Shown here piece by piece: positions 10,991-22,391 of a stretch of 56,222 nucleotides of DNA. The DNA is from Hydrogenophaga sp. (GTDB taxonomy: Bacteria > Pseudomonadota > Gammaproteobacteria > Burkholderiales > Burkholderiaceae_C), in assembly GCA_018993155.1 (NCBI GenBank), contig JAGKSX010000090.1:1-56222 (forward strand), read 5' to 3'. Position 1 is the stretch's first letter, and each line of letters opens with the position of its first letter. The position numbers and the translations under genes were made by a program. The notes beneath the pieces are model-generated. The model made no database searches, was not told where the DNA came from, and saw only the letters and a program-made list of their open reading frames with translations.

Positions 10991-11380
10991 TCAGGACCAG
11001 CGGGTCCACAGGGCGGCGATCCAGATGCCGGCGCACAGCAGCAGGCTCAGCAGCACGGCCGCGCTGCCCATGTCCTTGGCGCGCTTGGACAGATCGTGCC
11101 ATTCGGGACCTATGCGGTCGATGGCGGTTTCGATGCCGGTGTTGAGCAGTTCGACCACCATCACCAGCAACACTGAGGCGGCCAGCAGGGCCGTCTCGAC
11201 CCAGCTTCGGCCGAGCCAGAACGCCGCCGGGATCATCACCAGCGCGGCCAGCGTCTCTTGCCGGAAAGCCGTTTCGCCCCAGCCGGCGCGCAAGCCGGCC
11301 AGGGAATAGCGAAACGCATGCGCCATGCGCGTGAGGCCGGTGCGGCGCTTCTGCGCGTCAACGGGTTCTTGGTTGTTCAT
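10991..11380 (-). CDS. dgkA: Diacylglycerol kinase
   Basis: Inner-membrane enzyme that phosphorylates diacylglycerol to phosphatidic acid, recycling lipid released by membrane-derived oligosaccharide and LPS modification. The 129-residue protein has three predicted membrane helices (about residues 43-58, 61-80 and 103-122) and the family signature ELLNTGIETAIDRIG in the cytoplasmic helix region. Length matches the approximately 120-residue bacterial DgkA plus a short polar N-terminus. It lies between the LOG gene and the RDD gene on the minus strand with gaps of 20 and 13 bp, indicating one operon. Confidence 0.93.
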   Translation of the reverse strand: MNNQEPVDAQKRRTGLTRMAHAFRYSLAGLRAGWGETAFRQETLAALVMIPAAFWLGRSWVETALLAASVLLVMVVELLNTGIETAIDRIGPEWHDLSKRAKDMGSAAVLLSLLLCAGIWIAALWTRWS

Positions 11381-11393
11381 CGGAAACTGCTTT

Positions 11394-11948
11394 TCAGCGC
11401 TTGGCACGAGGCGGTGTAGGGGGCGGGGCCTGGTGCACGAGGCGGGTGCCGGCGAGCGCATCGTGCAGAAACTGGCGCTGCGGATGGAAGCGCGAGAGCA
11501 GGGCCCAGACGACGATCCAGCCGCACAGCAGCACCGCCAACTCGCCCCCAGGCAAGCCCATGAGGCCGGAGACCGCCAGCGGTGGCAGCAGCCACAGCCA
11601 GGACAGCAGGTAGCGCAGCAGGGCGCGAGCCTGGGTGAGCGCGCGCCCATGGCGGTCCACGACGCGGATGTGCCAGGTCTTCATGGCCAGCGTCTGGCCC
11701 TTGGCCCAGAACCAGGCGAAGTAGATGCCGAACACCACGAACAGGAAAGCCTGCTGGGCATGCCTGTTGTCCAGCGCGTGCCGGGTCTGGGTGAGCGTGG
11801 AAAACAGGTAGCCAGCGAGGAACACGACGCCGAACATCAGCATGCCCTCATACAGCCAGCAGGCCATGCGGCGGCGCAGCGAGGGCGCCATCAGGTTGGG
11901 TTCGGCGCTGGAAGGGGGCGTCGTCGAGGCAGGCAGGGAAGCGGGCAT
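11394..11948 (-). CDS. RDD family membrane protein
   Basis: A 184-residue membrane protein. The start of the domain reads APSLRRRMACWLYEG (the RDD-type Arg plus acidic pattern in helix 1), followed by helices around 36-56, 72-90 and 113-150, and KGQTLAMKTWHIRVVD, the conserved loop of the family. RDD proteins are poorly characterised; some have been linked to ion exchange, so no function is assigned. The ATG at 11948 was chosen because upstream codons in the same frame run into the ilvI promoter region and have no membrane character. It is probably first in the RDD-dgkA-LOG operon. Confidence 0.85.
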   Translation of the reverse strand: MPASLPASTTPPSSAEPNLMAPSLRRRMACWLYEGMLMFGVVFLAGYLFSTLTQTRHALDNRHAQQAFLFVVFGIYFAWFWAKGQTLAMKTWHIRVVDRHGRALTQARALLRYLLSWLWLLPPLAVSGLMGLPGGELAVLLCGWIVVWALLSRFHPQRQFLHDALAGTRLVHQAPPPTPPRAKR

Positions 11949-12057
11949 GAGGCGGGCGCGAAGGCGGCAAGGAAGACAGGAATTGTCGCATTGCGGCACA
12001 TGCGGGCGCCTTTTTGGGGCGGCTTCTGACGCCCCGGCTGGAAAAACCTTGTTGCAG

Positions 12058-12066
12058 TGCGATAAT
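12058..12066 (+). promoter_or_regulatory. Extended -10 promoter candidate for ilvI
   Basis: TGCGATAAT, an extended -10 element, 155 bp upstream of the ilvI start in the 272-bp gap between the divergent RDD gene and ilvI. The -35 region is weak (CTGGAA 17 bp upstream). A long untranslated leader would follow. I looked there for a leader peptide rich in Ile, Val or Leu codons and found none. Confidence 0.45.
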
Positions 12067-12220
12067 GCCGGCTGCAATTCAAAACAAGGCAAACGGATCA
12101 GGGTCCGGCGGGGTATGTGCCCGCTCATGGCCATTGGTCTCAAGTCTCGAAACCGCTCCACAAGAGTGGGTCAAGAGGCACCCAAGGTTTTTCGTCAGAG
12201 AAATTCTCGAAAGGTTCATC

Positions 12221-13996
12221 ATGGAAATCAGCAAGGCCGAACTGGCCTCGGCTGCCGCCGCTAAAGGCGCAGCCCCTCAAGACCTCCGCGGCGCAGAAAT
12301 CCTCATCAAGGCCCTCCAGGCCGAAGGTGTGAAGTACGTCTGGGGCTACCCCGGCGGTGCTGTGCTGCACATCTACGACGCTTTCTACAAGCAGAACACG
12401 ATCCAGCACGTGCTGGTGCGCCATGAGCAGGCCGCCGTGCACGCGGCCGACGGCTACGCGCGCGCCACCGGTGACGTGGGCGTGGCCCTGGTCACCTCCG
12501 GCCCGGGCGTGACCAATGCCATCACAGGCATCGCCACGGCTTACATGGACAGCATCCCCATGGTCATCGTGACCGGTCAGGTGCCCACCGCCGCGATCGG
12601 CCTGGACGCCTTCCAGGAGTGCGACACCGTGGGCATCACCCGCCCCATCGTCAAGCACAACTTCCTGGTCAAGGATGCGCGCGACATGGCGATGGTCATG
12701 AAGAAGGCCTTCCACATCGCCCGCAGCGGCCGGCCCGGCCCGGTGGTGGTGGACATCCCGAAGGACGTGTCCTTCAACAAGGTGCCCTACAACGGCTACC
12801 CCGACTCGGTGGAGATGCGTTCCTACAACCCGGTGCGCAAGGGCCATGGCGGCCAGATCCGCAAGGCGCTTCAACTGCTGATGACGGCCAAGCGGCCCTA
12901 CATCTACACCGGTGGCGGCGTGCTGCTGGGCAACGCCACCAACGAGCTGCGCACGCTGGTAGACATGCTGGGCTACCCGGTCACCAACACGCTGATGGGC
13001 CTGGGCGCCTACCCGGCTTCCGACCGCAAGTTCCTGGGCATGCTGGGCATGCACGGCACGATCGAGGCCAACAACGCCATGCAGAACTGCGACGTGCTGT
13101 TGGCCGTGGGTGCGCGTTTCGACGACCGCGTGATCGGCAACCCCAAGCACTTTGCGCAGAACGAACGCAAGATCATTCACATCGACATCGACCCGTCGAG
13201 CATCTCCAAGCGCGTGAAGGTCGACATTCCCATCGTGGGCGACGTCAAGGACGTGCTGACCGAGCTGATCAGCATGGTGCGCGAGAGCACCGCGAGGCCC
13301 GATGACAAGGCCCTGGCCGAGTGGTGGAAGACCATCGAGGCCTGGCGTTCGCGCGACTGCCTGAAGTACGACCGTGGCAACAAGGACGTGATCAAGCCGC
13401 AGTACGTGCTGGAAACGCTGTGGAACATGACCAAGGATGCCGACACCTACATCACGTCGGACGTGGGGCAGCACCAGATGTGGGCGGCCCAGTACTACCG
13501 CTTCGACGAGCCGCGCCGCTGGATCAACTCCGGTGGCCTGGGCACCATGGGCGTGGGCATTCCCTATGCCATGGGCATCAAGCTGGCCAAGCCCGACAGC
13601 GAGGTGTTCTGCGTGACCGGTGAAGGCTCGGTGCAGATGTGCATCCAGGAACTGTCCACCTGCCTGCAATACAACACGCCCATCAAGGTCGTGGCCTTGA
13701 ACAACCGCTACCTGGGCATGGTCCGGCAGTGGCAGGAGATCGACTACGAAGGTCGCTACAGCCACAGCTACATGGACGCGTTGCCGAACTTCGTCAAGCT
13801 TGCCGAGGCCTATGGCCACGTGGGCATGCTGATCGAACGTCCCGAGGACGTCGAACCGGCGTTGCGCGAAGCGCGCAAGCTCAAGGACCGCACGGTCTTC
13901 ATGGACTTCCGCACCGACCCCACCGAGAACGTGTTCCCGATGGTTCAGGCCGGCAAGGGCATCACCGAGATGCTGCTGGGTTCCGAAGACCTGTAA
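12221..13996 (+). CDS. ilvI: Acetolactate synthase, catalytic subunit
   Basis: Thiamine-diphosphate enzyme that joins pyruvate to pyruvate or 2-oxobutyrate, the first common step to valine, leucine and isoleucine. The 591-residue protein has the catalytic Glu in VRHEQAAVHAADGYAR near residue 60, VTSGPGVTNAITG near 88, and the ThDP motif from GEGSVQ to ALNN near 468-496. It pairs with the regulatory subunit ilvH 117 bp downstream. The frame is open far upstream, but the ATG at 12221 (MEISKAELAS) follows a GAAAGG ribosome site and gives the usual N-terminus. ilvB would be an equally valid name. Confidence 0.96.
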   Translation: MEISKAELASAAAAKGAAPQDLRGAEILIKALQAEGVKYVWGYPGGAVLHIYDAFYKQNTIQHVLVRHEQAAVHAADGYARATGDVGVALVTSGPGVTNAITGIATAYMDSIPMVIVTGQVPTAAIGLDAFQECDTVGITRPIVKHNFLVKDARDMAMVMKKAFHIARSGRPGPVVVDIPKDVSFNKVPYNGYPDSVEMRSYNPVRKGHGGQIRKALQLLMTAKRPYIYTGGGVLLGNATNELRTLVDMLGYPVTNTLMGLGAYPASDRKFLGMLGMHGTIEANNAMQNCDVLLAVGARFDDRVIGNPKHFAQNERKIIHIDIDPSSISKRVKVDIPIVGDVKDVLTELISMVRESTARPDDKALAEWWKTIEAWRSRDCLKYDRGNKDVIKPQYVLETLWNMTKDADTYITSDVGQHQMWAAQYYRFDEPRRWINSGGLGTMGVGIPYAMGIKLAKPDSEVFCVTGEGSVQMCIQELSTCLQYNTPIKVVALNNRYLGMVRQWQEIDYEGRYSHSYMDALPNFVKLAEAYGHVGMLIERPEDVEPALREARKLKDRTVFMDFRTDPTENVFPMVQAGKGITEMLLGSEDL

Positions 13997-14009
13997 TCCC
14001 CGAAGCGAG

Positions 14010-14030
14010 GCGGCGAAAAGCCTTCGCCGC
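14010..14030 (+). other. Intercistronic hairpin between ilvI and ilvH
   Basis: GCGGCGAA (14010-14017) pairs perfectly with TTCGCCGC (14023-14030) around a 5-nt loop, 13 bp after the ilvI stop. No T-tract follows, so it is more likely an mRNA-stabilising or attenuating hairpin than a terminator. Confidence 0.55.
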
Positions 14031-14113
14031 TTCATCCCCTCAGACGAATCTATTGTCCGCCAAGTCTGCGCATTACCGTGCGCAGGGGAGGGCGGCGAAA
14101 AGAGGAATCGCAC

Positions 14114-14605
14114 ATGAAACACATCATCGCTGTCCTGCTGGAAAACGAACCCGGCGCCCTGTCGCGCGTGGTGGGGCTGTTCTCGGCCCGTGGCTACAAC
14201 ATCGAATCGCTCACGGTGGCGCCCACCGAGGACCCCAGCCTCTCGCGCATGACGATCCAGACCACAGGGTCGGACGACGTCATCGAGCAAATCACCAAGC
14301 ACCTGAACCGCCTCATCGAGGTCGTCAAGGTGGTCGACCTCACCGAGGGGGCCTACACCGAGCGCGAGCTCATGATGGTGAAGGTCCGCGCGGTGGGCAA
14401 GGAGCGCGAGGAAATGAAGCGCATGGCCGACATCTTCCGCGGCCGCATCATCGATGTGACCGAGAAGAGCTACACCATCGAACTCACCGGCGACCAAGGC
14501 AAGAACGACGCCTTCCTCGAGGCGATCGATCGCTCGTCCATTCTGGAGACCGTGCGCACGGGCGCCAGCGGCATCGGCCGGGGTGAGAGAATCCTGCGCG
14601 TCTGA
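14114..14605 (+). CDS. ilvH: Acetolactate synthase, small regulatory subunit
   Basis: Regulatory partner of IlvI that stimulates the enzyme and confers valine feedback inhibition. The 163-residue protein begins MKHIIAVLLENEPGALSRVVGLF, the ACT domain that forms the valine site, with NIESLTVAPTEDPSLSRMT near 29-47, and then the ALS_ss C-terminal domain (ELMMVKVRAVG, DQGKNDAFLEAID). Length is typical. The ATG at 14114 is the standard start for the family. The downstream gap to ilvC carries a composite palindromic repeat. Confidence 0.96.
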   Translation: MKHIIAVLLENEPGALSRVVGLFSARGYNIESLTVAPTEDPSLSRMTIQTTGSDDVIEQITKHLNRLIEVVKVVDLTEGAYTERELMMVKVRAVGKEREEMKRMADIFRGRIIDVTEKSYTIELTGDQGKNDAFLEAIDRSSILETVRTGASGIGRGERILRV

Positions 14606-14629
14606 CAGTTTCGGGGCTCAGCCATTTGC

Positions 14630-15764
<1,135 letters not shown>

Positions 15765-15796
15765 TGGGCAGCGTGCGCCGCGACGCGGCGCACATC

Positions 15797-15834
15797 GACG
15801 ACAAAGGCCACTTCGGTGGCCTTTGTCGTCTTTT
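15797..15834 (+). terminator. Rho-independent terminator after ilvC
   Basis: A perfect 15-bp stem, GACGACAAAGGCCAC (15797-15811) with GTGGCCTTTGTCGTC (15816-15830), caps a TTCG tetraloop and is followed by TTTT. It ends the ilvIHC transcript 32 bp after the ilvC stop. Confidence 0.93.
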
Positions 15835-15930
15835 CCTACAGACACACTGCTTTACACTGCGGCATTCTGTGCAAGAGTGCTGCATCAGGTGCCGACGGCT
15901 CCTGCGCTGCCGCGACGCACGGAGGCCCGA

Positions 15931-16743
15931 ATGCACGACGGAACCGAAACCACTATGACGCCCAGCGACGAACGCCCCAGGCGCCCCAAGGGCATCTACA
16001 TGGTGCCCAACATGATCACGCTTGCCGCCCTGTTCGGCGGCTTCTATTCGGTCGTCATGGCCATGAACGGTCGTTACGACCTGGCCACCGTGGGCATCTT
16101 CGTGGCCATGGTGCTCGACAGCCTGGACGGCCGTGTGGCGCGCCTCACCAACACGCAGAGCGCGTTCGGCGAGCAGATGGACTCGCTGTCCGACATGGTG
16201 TCCTTCGGTGCGGCGCCCGCGCTCATCGCCTACGAATGGACCCTGCGCGACATCGGCCGCTGGGGCTGGATCGCCGCGTTCGTGTACTGCGCGTGCGCGG
16301 CTCTGCGGCTCGCCCGTTTCAACGTCAACACGGCCGTGGTGGACAAGCGCTACTTCCAGGGCCTGCCGTCGCCTGCGGCCGCCGCGCTGGTGGCCGGTTT
16401 CATCTGGCTCATGACCGAGCTGGAAGTGCCCGCGCAGGACGTGACCTGGCCCATGTTCGTCATCACGCTCTACACGGGCCTGACCATGGTGACCAATGTG
16501 CCGTTCTACAGCTTCAAGGACCTGAGCCTGAAGAAGAGCGTGCCGTTCGCGGCCATCGTGCTCGTGGCCCTGGGCATCGCTGTCATCAACATCCATCCGC
16601 CCACCGTGCTGTTTGCGCTCTTCGTCGTTTACGGGCTGTCCGGCTATGCGGTGTACTTCTGGCGCAAGGCCAAAGGCCGCCCGACCAGCGTGATCAGCAC
16701 CTCCACCGACGAGCCCGACGAGCGTGGTCTGCACGACGATTGA
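15931..16743 (+). CDS. pssA: CDP-diacylglycerol-serine O-phosphatidyltransferase
   Basis: Membrane enzyme that makes phosphatidylserine, the precursor of phosphatidylethanolamine. The 270-residue protein has the CDP-alcohol phosphotransferase signature in residues 60-85: D-x2-DG-x2-AR-x8-G-x3-D-x3-D, read directly as DSLDGRVAR then [10 protein letters not shown]. About eight hydrophobic segments follow, so this is the type II integral-membrane PssA. The ATG at 15931 has GGAGG just upstream. An earlier in-frame ATG at 15823 lies inside the ilvC terminator and is rejected. It sits between the ilv and leu blocks, as in related genomes. Confidence 0.93.
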
Positions 16744-16765
16744 GCTTTGTGATACAGTTTGAGCC

Positions 16766-16822
16766 ATGATTCTTCGCGCTTTCGCCCTACTACTGGATGT
16801 CCGACACGGGCAGGCTTGGTAG
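16766..16822 (+). CDS. leu operon leader peptide (18 residues)
   Basis: A short reading frame, MILRAFALLLDVRHGQAW and stop, lies 154 bp before leuA. Four of its 18 residues are Leu, three of them in tandem (codons 8-10 read CTA CTA CTG, 16787-16795), and CTA is rare in this GC-rich genome. The peptide ends 22 bp before a terminator hairpin at 16845-16877. This is the textbook layout of a transcription attenuator in which ribosome stalling on scarce Leu-tRNA lets leuA be transcribed. The ribosome site is weak (TTTGAG). The gene is too short for automatic ORF calling. Confidence 0.8.
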   Translation: MILRAFALLLDVRHGQAW

Positions 16823-16884
16823 CAGCGCGCGCGCATTCCATTCAAAACGGCCCGTTTGCACCCGCAGCGGGCCGTTTGCATTTT
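16806..16884 (+). terminator. leuA attenuator: terminator with competing antiterminator
   Basis: Terminator stem AAACGGCCCG (16845-16854) pairs with CGGGCCGTTT (16868-16877) around a 13-nt loop and is followed by GCATTTT. ACGGGC at 16806-16811, inside the leader peptide codons for His-Gly-Gln, is exactly complementary to GCCCGT at 16850-16855, which overlaps the 5' arm of the terminator. A ribosome stalled on the Leu codons at 16787-16795 would leave 16806-16811 free to form this antiterminator; a ribosome that reaches the stop codon would cover it. Pairings are seen; the mechanism is inferred from known leader attenuators. Confidence 0.75.
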
Positions 16885-16919
16885 GGGGCTGTGGGTTTCA
16901 GTAACATCGAAAGAGCACC

Positions 16920-18608
16920 ATGTTGAAACACCCTGCCAGCAAGTACCCCGCCTTCCAGCCGATCGGTCTCAAGGACCGCACCTGGCCCGATGCCGTTATC
17001 ACCCAGGCTCCCATCTGGCTGAGCACCGATCTGCGTGACGGCAACCAGGCCCTGATCGAGCCGATGGACGTGGAGCGCAAACTGCGCATGTTCAAGCTGC
17101 TGGTGCAGATCGGGTTCAAGGAGATCGAGGTCGGTTTCCCGTCGGCTTCGCAGACCGAATTCGATTTCCTGCGCCGCCTCATCGATGAAAACCTCATCCC
17201 GGACGACGTCACCATCCAGGTGCTCACCCAGGCCCGCGAGCCGCTGATCCGGCGCACTTTCGAGTCCCTGCAGGGCGCCCCGCGCGCCATCGTGCACCTC
17301 TACAACGCCGTGGCTCCCGTCATGCGGCGCGTGGTGCTGGGCATGGACGAGGACGAGATCGTCGAGCTCGCCACGCCGCAGGCGCGTCTGTTCAGCGAGC
17401 TGGCCGCCTCGCAGCCCGCCACGCAGTGGACCTTCCAGTATTCACCGGAGATGTTCTCGGGCACCGAGCTCGCCTTCTCCAAGCGGGTGGTGGACGCCGT
17501 GACCGAGGTCTGGCAACCCACCCCCGAGCGCAAGTGCATCATCAACCTGCCGTCCACGGTGGAGCACAGCACGCCGAACATCTTTGCTGACATGATCGAA
17601 TGGATGCACCGCCACCTCGCGCGGCGCGATGCGATCGTGCTGTCGGTGCATCCGCACAACGACCGCGGCACGGGCACCGCCGCGGGCGAGTTCGCGTTGA
17701 TGGCCGGTGCCGACCGCATCGAAGGCTGCCTGTTCGGCAACGGCGAGCGCACCGGCAACCTCGATCTGGTCAACGTCGCGCTCAATCTCTACACGCAAGG
17801 CGTGTCGCCCGGCCTGGACTTCTCCGACATCGACGAGATCCGCCGCACCGTCGAGCATTGCAACCAGTTGCCGGTGCACCCGCGCCATCCGTACGTGGGC
17901 GATCTGGTCTACACCTCGTTCTCCGGCTCGCACCAGGACGCGATCCGCAAGGCGTTCGCGGCACGTCGGGAGGACGACCCCTGGAACATCCCCTACCTGC
18001 CCGTGGACCCCAAGGACCTGGGGCGCAGCTACGAGGCGGTGATCCGCGTCAACAGCCAGTCGGGCAAGGGCGGCATTGCCTATCTGCTGGAAAACGAATA
18101 CGGTCTTGAGTTGCCGCGCCGCCTGCAGATCGAGTTCAGCCAGGTGGTGCAGGCGGTGATGGACGCCAACGGCAAGGAACTGGCCGCCGCCGACCTGTGG
18201 GACATCTTCGACCGCGAGTATGGGCTGTCCCAGGTCGCCGCGCCGCTGCAACCTGTCATGGAAGACGTCACGGGGCAGCGCGTGCGCGTGGCCGCACAGG
18301 TGGAGATGGCCGGTCAGCCGGTTTCGGTGGACGGGCAGGGCAACGGGCCCATCGATGCCTTCGTCAACGGGCTGCAGACGGTGATGGGCCGCCAGCTGCG
18401 CGTGCTGGACTACCACGAGCACGCGATCGGCTCTGGCGCCCAGGCGCGTGCCGTGGCCTATGTGGAAATGCGCATCGACGAGCAACGCACGGTGTTCGGG
18501 GTGGGGATCGACGCCAACATCGTCTCGGCGTCCTTCAAGGCCATTCTGTCCGGTCTGAACCGGGTGACGCGACCGCACACAAATACATCTGAAGCCCAGA
18601 CGGTGTGA
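16920..18608 (+). CDS. leuA: 2-isopropylmalate synthase, long type (LeuA type 2)
   Basis: Condenses acetyl-CoA with 2-oxoisovalerate, the committed step of leucine synthesis. The 562-residue protein is of the long type (TIGR00970-like): it starts [17 protein letters not shown], has [15 protein letters not shown] near 36-50 where other LeuA proteins have [12 protein letters not shown], the metal motif SVHPHNDRG near 240, [12 protein letters not shown], and a C-terminal LeuA regulatory domain with the Leu feedback site. It lies directly behind the leu attenuator and 41 bp before a second, short-type isopropylmalate synthase, so both are likely under the same leader. Confidence 0.95.
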
Positions 18609-18649
18609 TGCCGATCGGGCCGACCAATACAACTTCAACGGAGTTCCCC

Positions 18650-20191
18650 ATGAGCGACAAACTGATCATTTTCGACACCACCCTGCGCGACGGTGAGCAA
18701 TCGCCCGGTGCGTCCATGACCAAGGACGAGAAGCTGCGCATCGCGCGCCAGCTGGAACGCCTGAAAGTCGACGTGATCGAGGCCGGTTTTGCGGCCAGCT
18801 CGAACGGGGACTTCGACTGTGTGCAGGCCATCGCCAACACCATCAAGGACTCCACGGTGTGCTCGCTGGCGCGGGCCAACGACAGGGACATTTCGCGCGC
18901 GGCGGAAGCCCTCAAGGGCGCTCATCGGGCACGCATCCACACCTTCATCGCCACCAGCGCCCTGCACATGGAGAAGAAGCTGCGCATGACGCCGGAGCAG
19001 GTGCTGGAGCAGGCGGTGCAGTCGGTGCGCTTCGCCCGCAACCTGGTGGACGACATCGAGTTCAGCCCGGAAGACGGCTACCGCAGCGATGTCGATTTCC
19101 TCTGCCGCGTGCTGGAGGCCGTGATCAAGGAGGGCGCGACGACCCTCAACATCCCGGACACCGTGGGGTATGCGATCCCGGAGCTCTACGGCGATTTCAT
19201 CCGCACCTTGCGCGAGCGCGTGCCCAACTCCGACAAGGCCATCTGGTCGGTGCATTGCCACAACGACCTCGGCATGGCCGTGGCGAACTCGCTGGCCGGC
19301 GTGAAGATCGGTGGCGCGCGCCAGGTGGAGTGCACCATCAACGGCCTGGGCGAGCGCGCGGGCAACTGCTCGCTCGAAGAGATCGTGATGGCGGTGCGCA
19401 CGCGGCGTGACTACTTCGGCCTGGACGTGGGCGTGGACGCCACGCAGATCGTGCCGGCCAGCCGCATGGTGAGCCAGACCACCGGGTTCGTGGTGCAGCC
19501 CAACAAGGCGGTGGTGGGCGCCAACGCGTTTGCCCATGCCAGCGGGATTCACCAGGACGGCGTTCTCAAGGCACGCGACACTTATGAAATCATGCGCGCA
19601 GAGGACGTGGGCTGGAGTGCCAACAAGATCGTGCTGGGCAAGCTCAGTGGCCGCAATGCGTTCAAGCAGCGCCTGCAGGACCTGGGCATCGAAATGGAGT
19701 CCGAGAGCGAGATCAACACCGCCTTTGCGGCGTTCAAGGAACTGGCCGACCGCAAGAGCGAGATCTTCGACGAGGACATCCTGGCCCTGTGCAGCGACGA
19801 GAGCGTGACCGCCGAGAAGGAGCAGTACGGCCTGGTCTCGCTGAAACAGCGCAGCGAGACCGGCGAGCGCCCGCACGCCAGCGTGGTGTTCACCGTGGAC
19901 GGCAAGGAAATCCAGGGCGAGAGCGACGGCAACGGCCCCGTGGACGCCTCGCTCAAAGCGATCGAGAACCACGTGAAGAGCGGCGCCGAGTTGCTGCTGT
20001 ACTCGGTCAATGCCATCACCAGCGGTTCCACCGAGAGCCAGGGTGAGGTGACGGTGCGCCTTCAACACGGTGGCCGCGTCGTCAACGGCGTGGGTGCCGA
20101 CCCTGACATCGTCGTGGCCTCGGCAAAGGCGTACCTGAGTGCGCTGAACAAGCTGCACAGCAAATCGGACCGCGTCGCCGCACAGGGATAA
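18650..20191 (+). CDS. leuA: 2-isopropylmalate synthase, short type (LeuA type 1)
   Basis: A second synthase of 513 residues, of the bacterial LeuA type 1 (TIGR00973-like). It has [15 protein letters not shown] at 9-23, the [15 protein letters not shown] metal motif near 200, [19 protein letters not shown] and a C-terminal LeuA dimer domain from about residue 375. It shares only the core TIM-barrel motifs with the upstream long-type enzyme, so this is not a recent duplication. A citramalate or homocitrate synthase role cannot be ruled out by eye, but the motifs fit isopropylmalate synthase. CGGAG precedes the ATG at 18650. Confidence 0.92.
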
Positions 20192-20303
20192 AACCCAATG
20201 AAATCAAAGGCTTGATGAATTGTGTTTCGTGAGGCGAAGAAAAGACACCAAAAGTAGCACTTGTTCTACCGATCACTGAAGACAATTTCCCAAGCTTTTG
20301 ATA

Positions 20304-20332
20304 TTGCTAGTTTTTTTCCGATTGCCTATACT
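20304..20332 (+). promoter_or_regulatory. Sigma-70 promoter of the D,D-endopeptidase gene
   Basis: TTGCTA (20304-20309), 17-bp spacer, TATACT (20327-20332) lie 36 bp before the start at 20369. The 177-bp gap is noticeably AT-richer than its surroundings. Apart from this promoter I see nothing else in it. Confidence 0.75.
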
Positions 20333-20368
20333 TCACCCCTGCGCAGTTCCTGTTGCTGGAGTGGAGTC

Positions 20369-21529
20369 ATGGTCATCGGCGTCGATCGTTTTCGCAAAAT
20401 TTTGCTGGTTGCGGCTGTTGCCGGTTGGGTAGCGCTTTCTTTCGCGCCCTTGCAAGCCCAGGCTGCCAGCAACGCGAAGACCGCCAAGAAGACGGTGACG
20501 GCCAAGGCGACTCCCAAGCGCACGGTGACCACCTCCAAGAAGGCCCAACCCAAGGTGGCGCAGGCCCCGGCACGCAAGACCGTTCGCGTGGCCAGCAAGC
20601 CCCAGGGCCGTGTGAAGGTTCAGATGGCGGCGGGCAAGACGACTTCGCTGCACAAGGTGGCCGTTCAACGCAAACCCGCAGCCACCCAGGCGGTGATGCG
20701 CGCGGCCGTGGCGCCCCGTCTTTCCGAAGGCTCGCGCCTGGGCCTGCGCTCGATGGACGATCCGCTCGAACTCAATTCCAGCGTGGCCCTGGTGATCGAT
20801 CAGGAAACCAATGAAGTGCTGTTCAGCAAGAATGACGCGGCTGTGCTGCCGATCGCCTCGCTGACCAAGCTCATGACCGGCCTGGTGGTGGCAGACGCCC
20901 ACCTGAACATGCAGGAAATGATCACCATCACGCAGGACGATGTGGACACCTACAAGGGCAGCAGTTCGCGCCTGGCCGTGGGTACCACGCTCAGCCGTGG
21001 CGAGCTGATGCACCTGGCGCTGATGTCCAGCGAAAACCGGGCCGCCCATGCACTCGGTCGCACCTACCCCGGCGGTCTTGCCGAGTTCGTGCGCCTGATG
21101 AACAAGAAGGCGCTGGAACTGGGCATGGCAGACACCCGTTACGTCGAGCCCACCGGTCTGTCCAGCTCCAACCAGTCGAGCGCGCGCGATCTCGCGACCC
21201 TGGTGTCCGTGGCCTACCAGCGCCCCATCCTGCGCGATTTGTCCACGTCGCCCAGCTACGAGGTCGACCTCGGTCGTCGCACGCTGCACTACAACAACTC
21301 GAACGGCCTGATCAAGAACCCGTCATGGGACATCGGTCTTCAGAAGACCGGCTACATCTCCGAAGCCGGCCGCTGCCTCGTCATGCAGGCCAAGGTGGCC
21401 GGGCGCCAGTTGATCATGGTGTTTCTGGACGCCACCGGCAAGGTCGGGCGCATGCAGGACGCCGAACGCGTGCGGCGCTGGGTCGAAGTGCAGACCGATG
21501 CGCGCGTGATGCCCCGTCCTCAAGGCTGA
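20369..21529 (+). CDS. pbpG: D-alanyl-D-alanine endopeptidase, PBP7/PbpG type
   Basis: Periplasmic penicillin-binding serine hydrolase (S11 family) that cleaves peptidoglycan cross-links. Of 386 residues, 1-32 form a signal peptide (hydrophobic core LLVAAVAGWVALSF, cut after AQA). Residues 33-105 are a Lys/Thr/Ala-rich basic linker. The catalytic domain then shows SLTK, SSENR (SxN) and LQKTGY (KTG), all three active-site motifs. Length fits PbpG rather than the larger DacA, and I see no C-terminal amphipathic anchor. The ATG at 20369 has GGAG 6 bp before it and sits behind a good promoter. A hairpin terminator follows. Confidence 0.9.
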   Translation: MVIGVDRFRKILLVAAVAGWVALSFAPLQAQAASNAKTAKKTVTAKATPKRTVTTSKKAQPKVAQAPARKTVRVASKPQGRVKVQMAAGKTTSLHKVAVQRKPAATQAVMRAAVAPRLSEGSRLGLRSMDDPLELNSSVALVIDQETNEVLFSKNDAAVLPIASLTKLMTGLVVADAHLNMQEMITITQDDVDTYKGSSSRLAVGTTLSRGELMHLALMSSENRAAHALGRTYPGGLAEFVRLMNKKALELGMADTRYVEPTGLSSSNQSSARDLATLVSVAYQRPILRDLSTSPSYEVDLGRRTLHYNNSNGLIKNPSWDIGLQKTGYISEAGRCLVMQAKVAGRQLIMVFLDATGKVGRMQDAERVRRWVEVQTDARVMPRPQG

Positions 21530-21545
21530 CCCTTCTTCCAGCTTC

Positions 21546-21577
21546 ATGAGAAACGGCCCGTCAGGGCCGTTTCTCAT
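21546..21577. terminator. Hairpin between convergent pbpG and IclR genes
   Basis: A perfect 14-bp stem, ATGAGAAACGGCCC (21546-21559) with GGGCCGTTTCTCAT (21564-21577), around GTCA. It has no long T-tract, but it sits between the two convergent stops and probably ends both transcripts. Confidence 0.75.
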
Positions 21578-21590
21578 GGGAGCGACGTGC

Positions 21591-22391
21591 TCAGCGGGCG
21601 GATGCCGGCGTCGGCACCTTGGGGCAGCCCAGCGCGGATGAAATCTCGGCGGCGGTGGAGCGCAGCTTGGGCACCCAGCTTTCGTCGATCCGGTCCGCAG
21701 GGGCGGAGATCGACAGCCCTGCCACCAGCTTGCTCTGGTCGTCGTAGATGCCGGCGGCCATGCACCTCACGCCCAGTTCCAGTTCCTCGTTGTCCCGTGC
21801 GAGGCCGGCTTGCCGGCACTGCGCCAGTTCGCGTTCCAGGGTGGCGAGCTGGGTCAGGCTGTTGCGCGTGTTGCCGGCCAGCCCGGTTCGGGTGGCGTAG
21901 GCGCGAACCCGTTGCGGCTCGTCATCGGCCAGGAAGAGCTTGCCCACCGAGGTGAGGTGCAGGGGCGCGCGGCCACCGATGGCGCGCACCACCTGCATGC
22001 CGGAACGTTCGCTGTACGCCCGCTCCACATAGACGATTTCATCGCCCTGGCGCACGCTCAGGTTGACCGGCTGCTGGATCATCTTGTGCAGCTCGCGCAT
22101 GGGCAGCAGGGCGGCATCCCGCACGCTCAGCCGTGCCTTGACCAGATTGCCCAGCTCCAGCAACCGCATGCCGAGCCGGTAGCTGCCTGCCTCGGGCCGA
22201 TCGACAAACCGGCCGATGGTCAGGTCGTTGAGGATGCGGTGCGCGGTCGAGGGATGCAGGCCGGTCTTCTCGCTGATTTCCTTCAGCGACACCGGTTCCT
22301 CGCGCGATGCCAGCACTTCCAGCAGGTTGAACATGCGTTCGATCACCTGGACTGTGGGCGTGCTGGGAAGGGTCTCGGAGCGTTTGGTCAT
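21591..22391 (-). CDS. IclR family transcriptional regulator
   Basis: A 266-residue regulator. The N-terminal winged helix-turn-helix is visible as PVSLKEISEKTGLHPSTAHRIL at about 33-54, the typical IclR recognition region. The C-terminal effector-binding domain follows with YRLGMRLLELG, LTSVGKLFLAD and LELGVRCMAAGIYD. The ligand is not predictable. There is no catabolic operon beside it, only the N-end-rule transferases downstream on the same strand after about 100 bp, so its target is probably elsewhere. Start MTKRSETLPST at 22391. Confidence 0.9.
   Translation of the reverse strand: MTKRSETLPSTPTVQVIERMFNLLEVLASREEPVSLKEISEKTGLHPSTAHRILNDLTIGRFVDRPEAGSYRLGMRLLELGNLVKARLSVRDAALLPMRELHKMIQQPVNLSVRQGDEIVYVERAYSERSGMQVVRAIGGRAPLHLTSVGKLFLADDEPQRVRAYATRTGLAGNTRNSLTQLATLERELAQCRQAGLARDNEELELGVRCMAAGIYDDQSKLVAGLSISAPADRIDESWVPKLRSTAAEISSALGCPKVPTPASAR

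Follow-up and report, generated by a model that had tools for sequence, protein, structure and literature searches.

What controls the two leuA genes that follow one another in the window (the whole stretch of Hydrogenophaga sp. DNA analyzed here, 56,222 nucleotides long), and how could leucine be sensed there? We read the region in front of them as a ribosome-mediated attenuator of transcription, responsive to charged leucine tRNA and in control of leuA1-leuA2, and we give this reading a probability of roughly 0.92. The evidence consists of the sequences, their conservation, covariation in a helix downstream of the terminator (S2), and computed folds. The genes, the leader, and the adjacent signals are the following.

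16748..16758, + strand: extended -10 promoter element TGTGATACAGT, seven bases 5' of the leader ATG (putative function)
16766..16822, + strand: ORF of the leader peptide MILRAFALLLDVRHGQAW, 18 residues, stop TAG, with an equivalent ORF in 81 of 81 loci
16787..16795, + strand: regulatory Leu codons CTA CTA CTG, identified by codon bias and conservation
16787..16822, + strand: segment 1:2 hairpin, which encloses segment 2; 16787-16792 (CTACTA) pairs with 16817-16822 (last sense codon and TAG)
16909..16915, + strand: Shine-Dalgarno-like GAAAGAG of leuA1 (named from its sequence, putative role)
16920..18608, + strand: leuA1, 2-isopropylmalate synthase of the yeast-like type (NF002991, 887.6 bits; TIGR00970, 787.7 bits; both above cut-off)
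18650..20191, + strand: leuA2, 2-isopropylmalate synthase of the bacterial type (NF002087, 912.4 bits; TIGR00973, 700.4 bits; above cut-off), in an ORF of 18605-20191 whose start ATG we take as 18650

The profile matches bear out an earlier claim of the first-pass annotation, that the locus encodes two different LeuA enzymes. Both genes lie directly 3' of the leader and belong to the cognate pathway, and both are predicted to be under its control. Upstream lie the genes for the acetolactate synthase large subunit and ketol-acid reductoisomerase, followed by pssA. An ilvH RNA (RF02993, 92.4 bits) occupies 14043-14110, between the acetolactate synthase large subunit gene and an ATG at 14114, and a 15-pair hairpin followed by TTTT lies at 15797-15830, 3' of the ketol-acid reductoisomerase gene; transcription of the ilv genes may stop at this hairpin and not feed leuA.

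A scan with LeuA1 returned 507 relatives, of which the best 80 were retained, a set biased to near kin; the top-scoring ones place the genome close to Hydrogenophaga. In all 81 loci (the window and the best 80 of the 507), a Leu-rich leader ORF and a GGCCCG...CGGGCC hairpin precede leuA1, and leuA2 lies downstream of leuA1 in 71 of them. Comparison of these upstream regions showed that the leader ORF, the Leu codons, the antiterminator, and the terminator are conserved across the family, and the 18-residue ORF and the tandem codons CTA CTA CTG, both proposed from the window's sequence at first pass, are present at 16766-16822 and 16787-16795. The consensus leader peptide, read by eye, is MNRISLALLLSPHGRRR. 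A first, stricter leader motif missed 14 of the 80 relatives, mostly those in which the third Leu is replaced (LLI, LLP, LLV, etc.), and in the leader of locus L015 no Leu codon stands next to another. For alignment (A1), 73 of the 81 sequences were used; those omitted for odd length or spacing were L014, L015, L017, L032, L033, L044, L067, and L076.

The codon usage of the leaders is distinctive. CTA makes up 179 of 333 Leu codons (54%) in the 81 leaders versus 4 of 3969 (0.1%) in leuA1 of the same loci, and in a wider set of loci, picked for matching leuA1 or the RNA model, an in-frame CTA is found in every one of 149 distinct leader ORFs. The stop codon is TAG in 81 of 81 leaders versus 1 of 81 leuA1 genes. 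CUA is the reverse complement of UAG, and CTACTA is complementary to TGGTAG at the end of the leader; the resulting segment 1:2 hairpin keeps at least five of its six pairs in 71 of the 73 aligned sequences and is seen in the window's predicted ribosome-free fold. Using the UAG stop as the pairing partner of the regulatory CUA codons makes for an elegantly economical design. Pairing with the stop explains the CTA bias only in part, because all 12 distinct leaders that stop at TAA or TGA keep CTA, and selection seems to act both on rare-codon sensitivity and on the 1:2 hairpin.

The transcript itself is probably leaderless, with a 5' end at or a few bases from the leader ATG. We propose this because an extended -10 element stands close to the ATG and strict Shine-Dalgarno sequences are missing upstream of the leaders: strict 4-mers occur in 0 of 81 leaders and 14 of 81 leuA1 genes, and when GAGA and AGAG are also counted, in 15 of 81 leaders and 62 of 81 leuA1 genes. 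A block TGTGnTAnAnT is almost invariant immediately 5' of the leader, and its core TGnTAnnnT is found in 80 of the 81 sequences (all except L010). In 78 of these 80, the gap from the hexamer to the chosen ATG is 6-10 bases, and the two outliers, with gaps of 12 and 19 (L054 and L062), both have an earlier in-frame ATG. Across the 81 sequences we saw no conserved -35 element, and the columns flanking the -10 element are unconserved.

The proposed switch itself is formed by two mutually exclusive helices.

16806..16855, + strand: antiterminator, segment 2:3; 16806-16811 (ACGGGC) pairs with 16850-16855 (GCCCGT)
16845..16884, + strand: predicted intrinsic terminator; stem 16845-16854/16868-16877, tail GCATTTT at 16878-16884

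An exact 6-bp antiterminator pairing that excludes the terminator stem had been noted at first pass, and we confirmed it on the sequence. The ten-pair terminator stem likewise holds, but TTTT does not follow it directly: the last three bases of the stem are T, GCA intervenes, and TTTT lies at 16881-16884, which leaves the U-run interrupted and weaker than first stated. The seven G-C pairs of the terminator are invariant in 73 of 73 sequences, with variation in the three outer A-T pairs, and 96.6% of antiterminator cells are paired, with no covariation and with changes that are losses only. Since both helices hardly vary, covariation is silent on them, and they rest on conservation and folding; the two alternative partners of segment 3, together with the coding role of segment 2, would freeze both. 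Their placement relative to the leader is also regular: CGGG lies 13 bases ahead of the leader stop in 78 of 81 sequences, and in 66 of 81 it follows the run's first Leu codon at a distance of 17 bases. On its own, the window is unimpressive: the fold of 16740-16920 has a z-score of -1.10 against dinucleotide shuffles (32 of 200 shuffles are as good), and a consensus terminator scan of 11000-22000 gave 10 sites versus 7.3 (sd 3.5) in shuffles, which is near chance. Conservation carries the case. We also observed that a GGG directly past the U-run (16885-16888) is kept in 90% or more of the 73 sequences of the alignment; in some predicted folds, it can pair with C residues 5' of the terminator.

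The first-pass annotation had proposed that a ribosome stalled at the Leu codons just frees 16806-16811, and ribosome-masked folding supports this. The nascent RNA was folded up to the last loop base, before the 3' arm of the terminator, with a ribosome mask reaching 12 bases beyond the first base of the A-site codon; 80 sequences were usable. The predicted probability of the antiterminator exceeds 0.5 in 74 of 80 sequences with a stall at Leu 1, in 78 of 80 at Leu 2, and in 13 of 80 at the third position, compared with 13 of 80 with no ribosome and 0 of 80 with the ribosome at the stop codon (medians of 0.998, 0.998, 0.131, 0.006, and 0, respectively). In the window, the computed probabilities are 0.989, 0.997, and 0.998 at Leu codons 1, 2, and 3, and 0.0 at the stop. 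Constrained folding with a masked ribosome thus gives the antiterminator with Leu stalls and none at the stop, and in these models the pattern is that of classical attenuation, including default termination without translation in most sequences.

Once segment 4 is present, the terminator is favored in 81 of 81 sequences in every ribosome state, stalled ones included. The two pairings are exclusive, as first claimed, but the antiterminator is far weaker than its competitor (0 of 81 sequences prefer it when arm 4 is present). It follows that the switch must be kinetic, and that the antiterminator must hold while the polymerase clears the U-run. In the proposed mechanism, transcription would start at the leader ATG or no more than a few bases from it. 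With plentiful leucine, the ribosome would reach the TAG and cover segment 2 (around 16806-16811), so that segment 3 (16845-16855) would pair with segment 4 (16868-16877) and form the terminator. When leucine is short, the ribosome would stall on the rare CTA codons and leave segment 2 open, which could then capture segment 3 before segment 4 is made and allow read-through into leuA. Without a ribosome, the Leu codons would pair with the stop codon and hide segment 2, giving termination by default.

Several findings count against the attenuator reading: the equilibrium preference for the terminator even with a stalled ribosome (81 of 81), the low yield of third-position stalls (just 13 of 80 with a probability above 0.5), the leader of L015 without adjacent Leu codons, the interrupted U-run of the window, a whole-leader fold that barely beats shuffles, and 55 of 299 family genomes without a match to the RNA model. 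In addition, the main switch helices are beyond the reach of the covariation test.

Covariation does speak for a further helix. The attenuator parts recognized at first pass stand, but that reading overlooked both the probable leaderless start and this conserved helix downstream of the terminator.

16860..16896, + strand: helix S2, downstream of the terminator stem; its 5' arm, 16860-16868, lies in the terminator loop and takes in the first base of the terminator's 3' arm, and pairs with 16888-16896, beyond the U-run

In the 73 aligned sequences, 97.0% of S2 cells are paired, and both sides change in three pairs and 46 cells. The covariation score is 0.172, compared with 0.072 (sd 0.008) for shuffles, none of which reaches 0.172 (0 of 500), and sliding the arms by one to three columns gives a score of at most 0.072. 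At 16867/16889, we found 37 G-C, 35 A-T, and one T-T, so that the pair is kept in 72 of 73 rows, and it changes at least seven times on the leuA1 DNA tree; at 16863/16893, the pair is missing in 8 of 73. A test on the tree yielded three independent contrasts on well-supported branches, all concordant and too few for significance. No significant S2 was found in L014, L017, L032, and L033, four of the eight sequences omitted from A1. These four were included in a wider test against mononucleotide shuffles of the downstream stretch (100 per locus), in which 121 of 149 distinct loci had a helix that outdid the shuffles at p≤0.05 (98 of 117 for leuA1 and 23 of 32 for leuA2), with 10 further loci unscorable. 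The failures include a group with an internal mismatch and some loci with virtually no helix (e.g. L017, L032, L033, L205, and L206).

The 5' arm of S2 ends no more than two bases from the 3' end of the terminator loop in 132 of 149 loci, and in the window this arm abuts the terminator 3' arm with no spare base. The window geometry (loop 1 of 5 bases, a junction of 0, and loop 3 of 11 bases) fits an H-type pseudoknot of S2 and the terminator stem, in which the U-run would be the third loop; coexistence of the two helices is suggested by this geometry. After read-through, the terminator loop could join 16888-16896, the likeliest arrangement being a pseudoknot with the terminator stem. Because its 3' arm is transcribed after the U-run, S2 exists only in read-through RNA and, by the same reasoning, comes too late to affect termination there, which would place its role in the read-through mRNA, in stability (perhaps by protecting the U-run) or in tuning leuA translation. 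The classical model assigns S2 no role, as the termination decision precedes its formation. We tentatively propose a second layer of control, for which we would offer somewhat less than even odds: a pseudoknot built from the terminator's own loop may close only in read-through mRNA, hide the failed terminator and its U-run, and so mark or protect the escaped leuA mRNA, or tune its translation. We know of no described amino-acid attenuator with a read-through pseudoknot on the terminator loop.

A structured 5' UTR whose last helix ends mostly 21-47 bases upstream of the leuA1 start codon could also mean that the leader acts on leuA through translation, by coupling or reinitiation, with the terminator secondary. 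The actinobacterial LEU element, in which a leader peptide and a pseudoknot precede leuA, is thought to be non-classical according to the available text of its description (PMC1262725) and lends this idea some precedent. We nevertheless consider it unlikely, given that the G-C stem of the terminator is invariant in all 73 sequences and that, by reading, the partner of the Leu codons is the leader stop rather than the Shine-Dalgarno sequence of leuA. Improbable, too, is the proposal that S2 serves as a late lock that keeps the antiterminated fold open: S2 can nest with the antiterminator, but the 3' arm of S2 is made past the termination point. When the nested fold of antiterminator and S2 was scored, the terminator fold proved more stable in all 68 sequences scored (by a median of 8.9 kcal/mol), and the nested lock was rejected.

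An inverted repeat not far from a promoter might instead be a DNA operator for a regulator. This is very unlikely for S2, whose terminator-to-3'-arm spacer varies from about 9 to 32 bases among loci with a significant helix, whose 5' arm keeps its place at the end of the loop, and whose pairing is kept in very different letters (L098, L192, and L195). The survival of pairing through letter drift and variable spacing is more in keeping with an RNA helix than with a DNA site.

The attenuator is widespread in the window's family. A covariance model (R1), built from 43 of the 73 aligned sequences, matches 244 of 299 genomes and 108 of 126 genera of the family (Comamonadaceae and kin), with no match in the other 55 genomes. 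Across the order, R1 matches 18 of 399 genomes; 13 of these belong to the window's family and the remaining 5 to a single other family. At least one genome of the window's family, G189, had no match in this order-wide scan. We read 94 R1-matching loci, with some organisms overlapping the earlier set, and found the leader pattern in 90; the best-matching leuA was leuA1 at 53 of these loci and leuA2 at the other 41, which suggests that the attenuator goes with the first leuA of a locus. That the hairpin is merely the ordinary 3' terminator of pssA, with the small ORF incidental, is extremely unlikely: the leader does begin 23 bases past the stop codon of pssA, a gene found no more than 600 bases upstream at 77 of the 81 loci (two others run into a contig end and two have something else), but a conserved Leu-rich ORF, rare CTA codons, TAG, fixed stop spacing, and an extended -10 serve no plain terminator, and the element precedes leuA2 in 41 of the 94 wider loci.

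Among the family genomes listed, G433, G435, G650, and G672 each have two R1 matches; in G435, leuA1 lies downstream of one match (L109) and leuA2 downstream of the other (L166). In most other families read in the order, the leuA upstream regions are unlike that of the window. In 10 of the 30 leuA1 loci read in the order (L131, L133, L135, L136, L138, L139, L143, L144, L146, and L156), we observed a different Leu-rich upstream ORF that stops at TAA and has an LLR- or LLLR-x-(A/G)R-like end; the GGCCCG...CGGGCC hairpin was not seen by eye in these ten. An inverted element, approximately GGTTGCC(N)GGCC with a later GGCAGCC-like arm, was seen by eye near leuA1 in several families (L130, L140, L142, L144, L146, L150, and L151). 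An Rfam search of eight leuA upstream loci from other families gave no match, among them L131, L136, L144, and L146 with the former ORF and L130, L140, L142, L144, L146, and L151 with the latter element.

How, then, does the attenuator compare with known systems? Features that characterize his, leu, trp, and ilv attenuators are found here: a Leu-rich ORF, a predicted terminator, a computed exclusive antiterminator, and cognate genes downstream. The enterobacterial leu attenuator (RF00512 Leu_leader; leuL of E. coli and Salmonella) combines exclusive hairpins and a terminator with a leader peptide whose rare CUA Leu codons stand in tandem, and leuA lies downstream; the window resembles it in all of these. 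The window differs in its peptide, its probable leaderless start, the pairing of Leu codons with UAG, and S2, which is not known to have an enterobacterial counterpart. Rfam gave no match for the leader at gathering score, and a search of 16700-16930 up to an E-value of 10 did not return RF00512, the best hit being Thr_leader at 18.5 bits against a cut-off of 55. An earlier mention of a plain attenuator, or of pseudoknots in attenuators, is possible elsewhere: a comparative analysis of attenuation reportedly appeared in Mol Biol in 2010 (Lopatovskaya), a 2007 conference paper is said to have treated pseudoknots in the classical attenuation model, and Vitreschak 2004 is a further likely source. 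In Rfam 15 and the open literature searched, we found no description of a leucine attenuator in Comamonadaceae and kin, including in the available text of PMC2965389 and PMC3766115.

The leuA attenuator of Shewanella shares with the window a leader peptide, a terminator, an antiterminator, and an anti-antiterminator before leuA; in the accessible part of that report, whose prediction disallowed pseudoknots, the terminator loop is not described as pairing with RNA further downstream (PMC2659441). The nearest pseudoknot in the sources available to us is that of the actinobacterial LEU element, which likewise has, upstream of leuA, a leader ORF rich in Leu codons together with a pseudoknot, and is built otherwise. 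There, as far as the accessible text goes, Leu codons pair with the leuA Shine-Dalgarno sequence and classical attenuation is deemed unlikely, whereas here their partner is the leader stop and the intrinsic terminator supplies one stem of the proposed pseudoknot (PMC1262725); by reading, CTACTACTG does not complement GAAAGAG. For the proposed leaderless start, the available text on Sinorhizobium meliloti offers a parallel in rnTrpL, an RNA derived from attenuation at trpL whose 5' end is the leader ATG and which is a small leaderless mRNA, although it concerns tryptophan rather than leucine and another group of organisms (PMC7298713). In Burkholderia cenocepacia, a TA-rich promoter motif is described directly 5' of leaderless genes in the portion of the source at hand (PMC4603805). 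In summary, the kind of control is already known, ribosome-mediated attenuation, and the S2-bearing form in this family appears to be new. It adds a family-wide leucine attenuator in Comamonadaceae and kin to the known systems, and its 149 distinct leaders form a natural series for attenuator kinetics.
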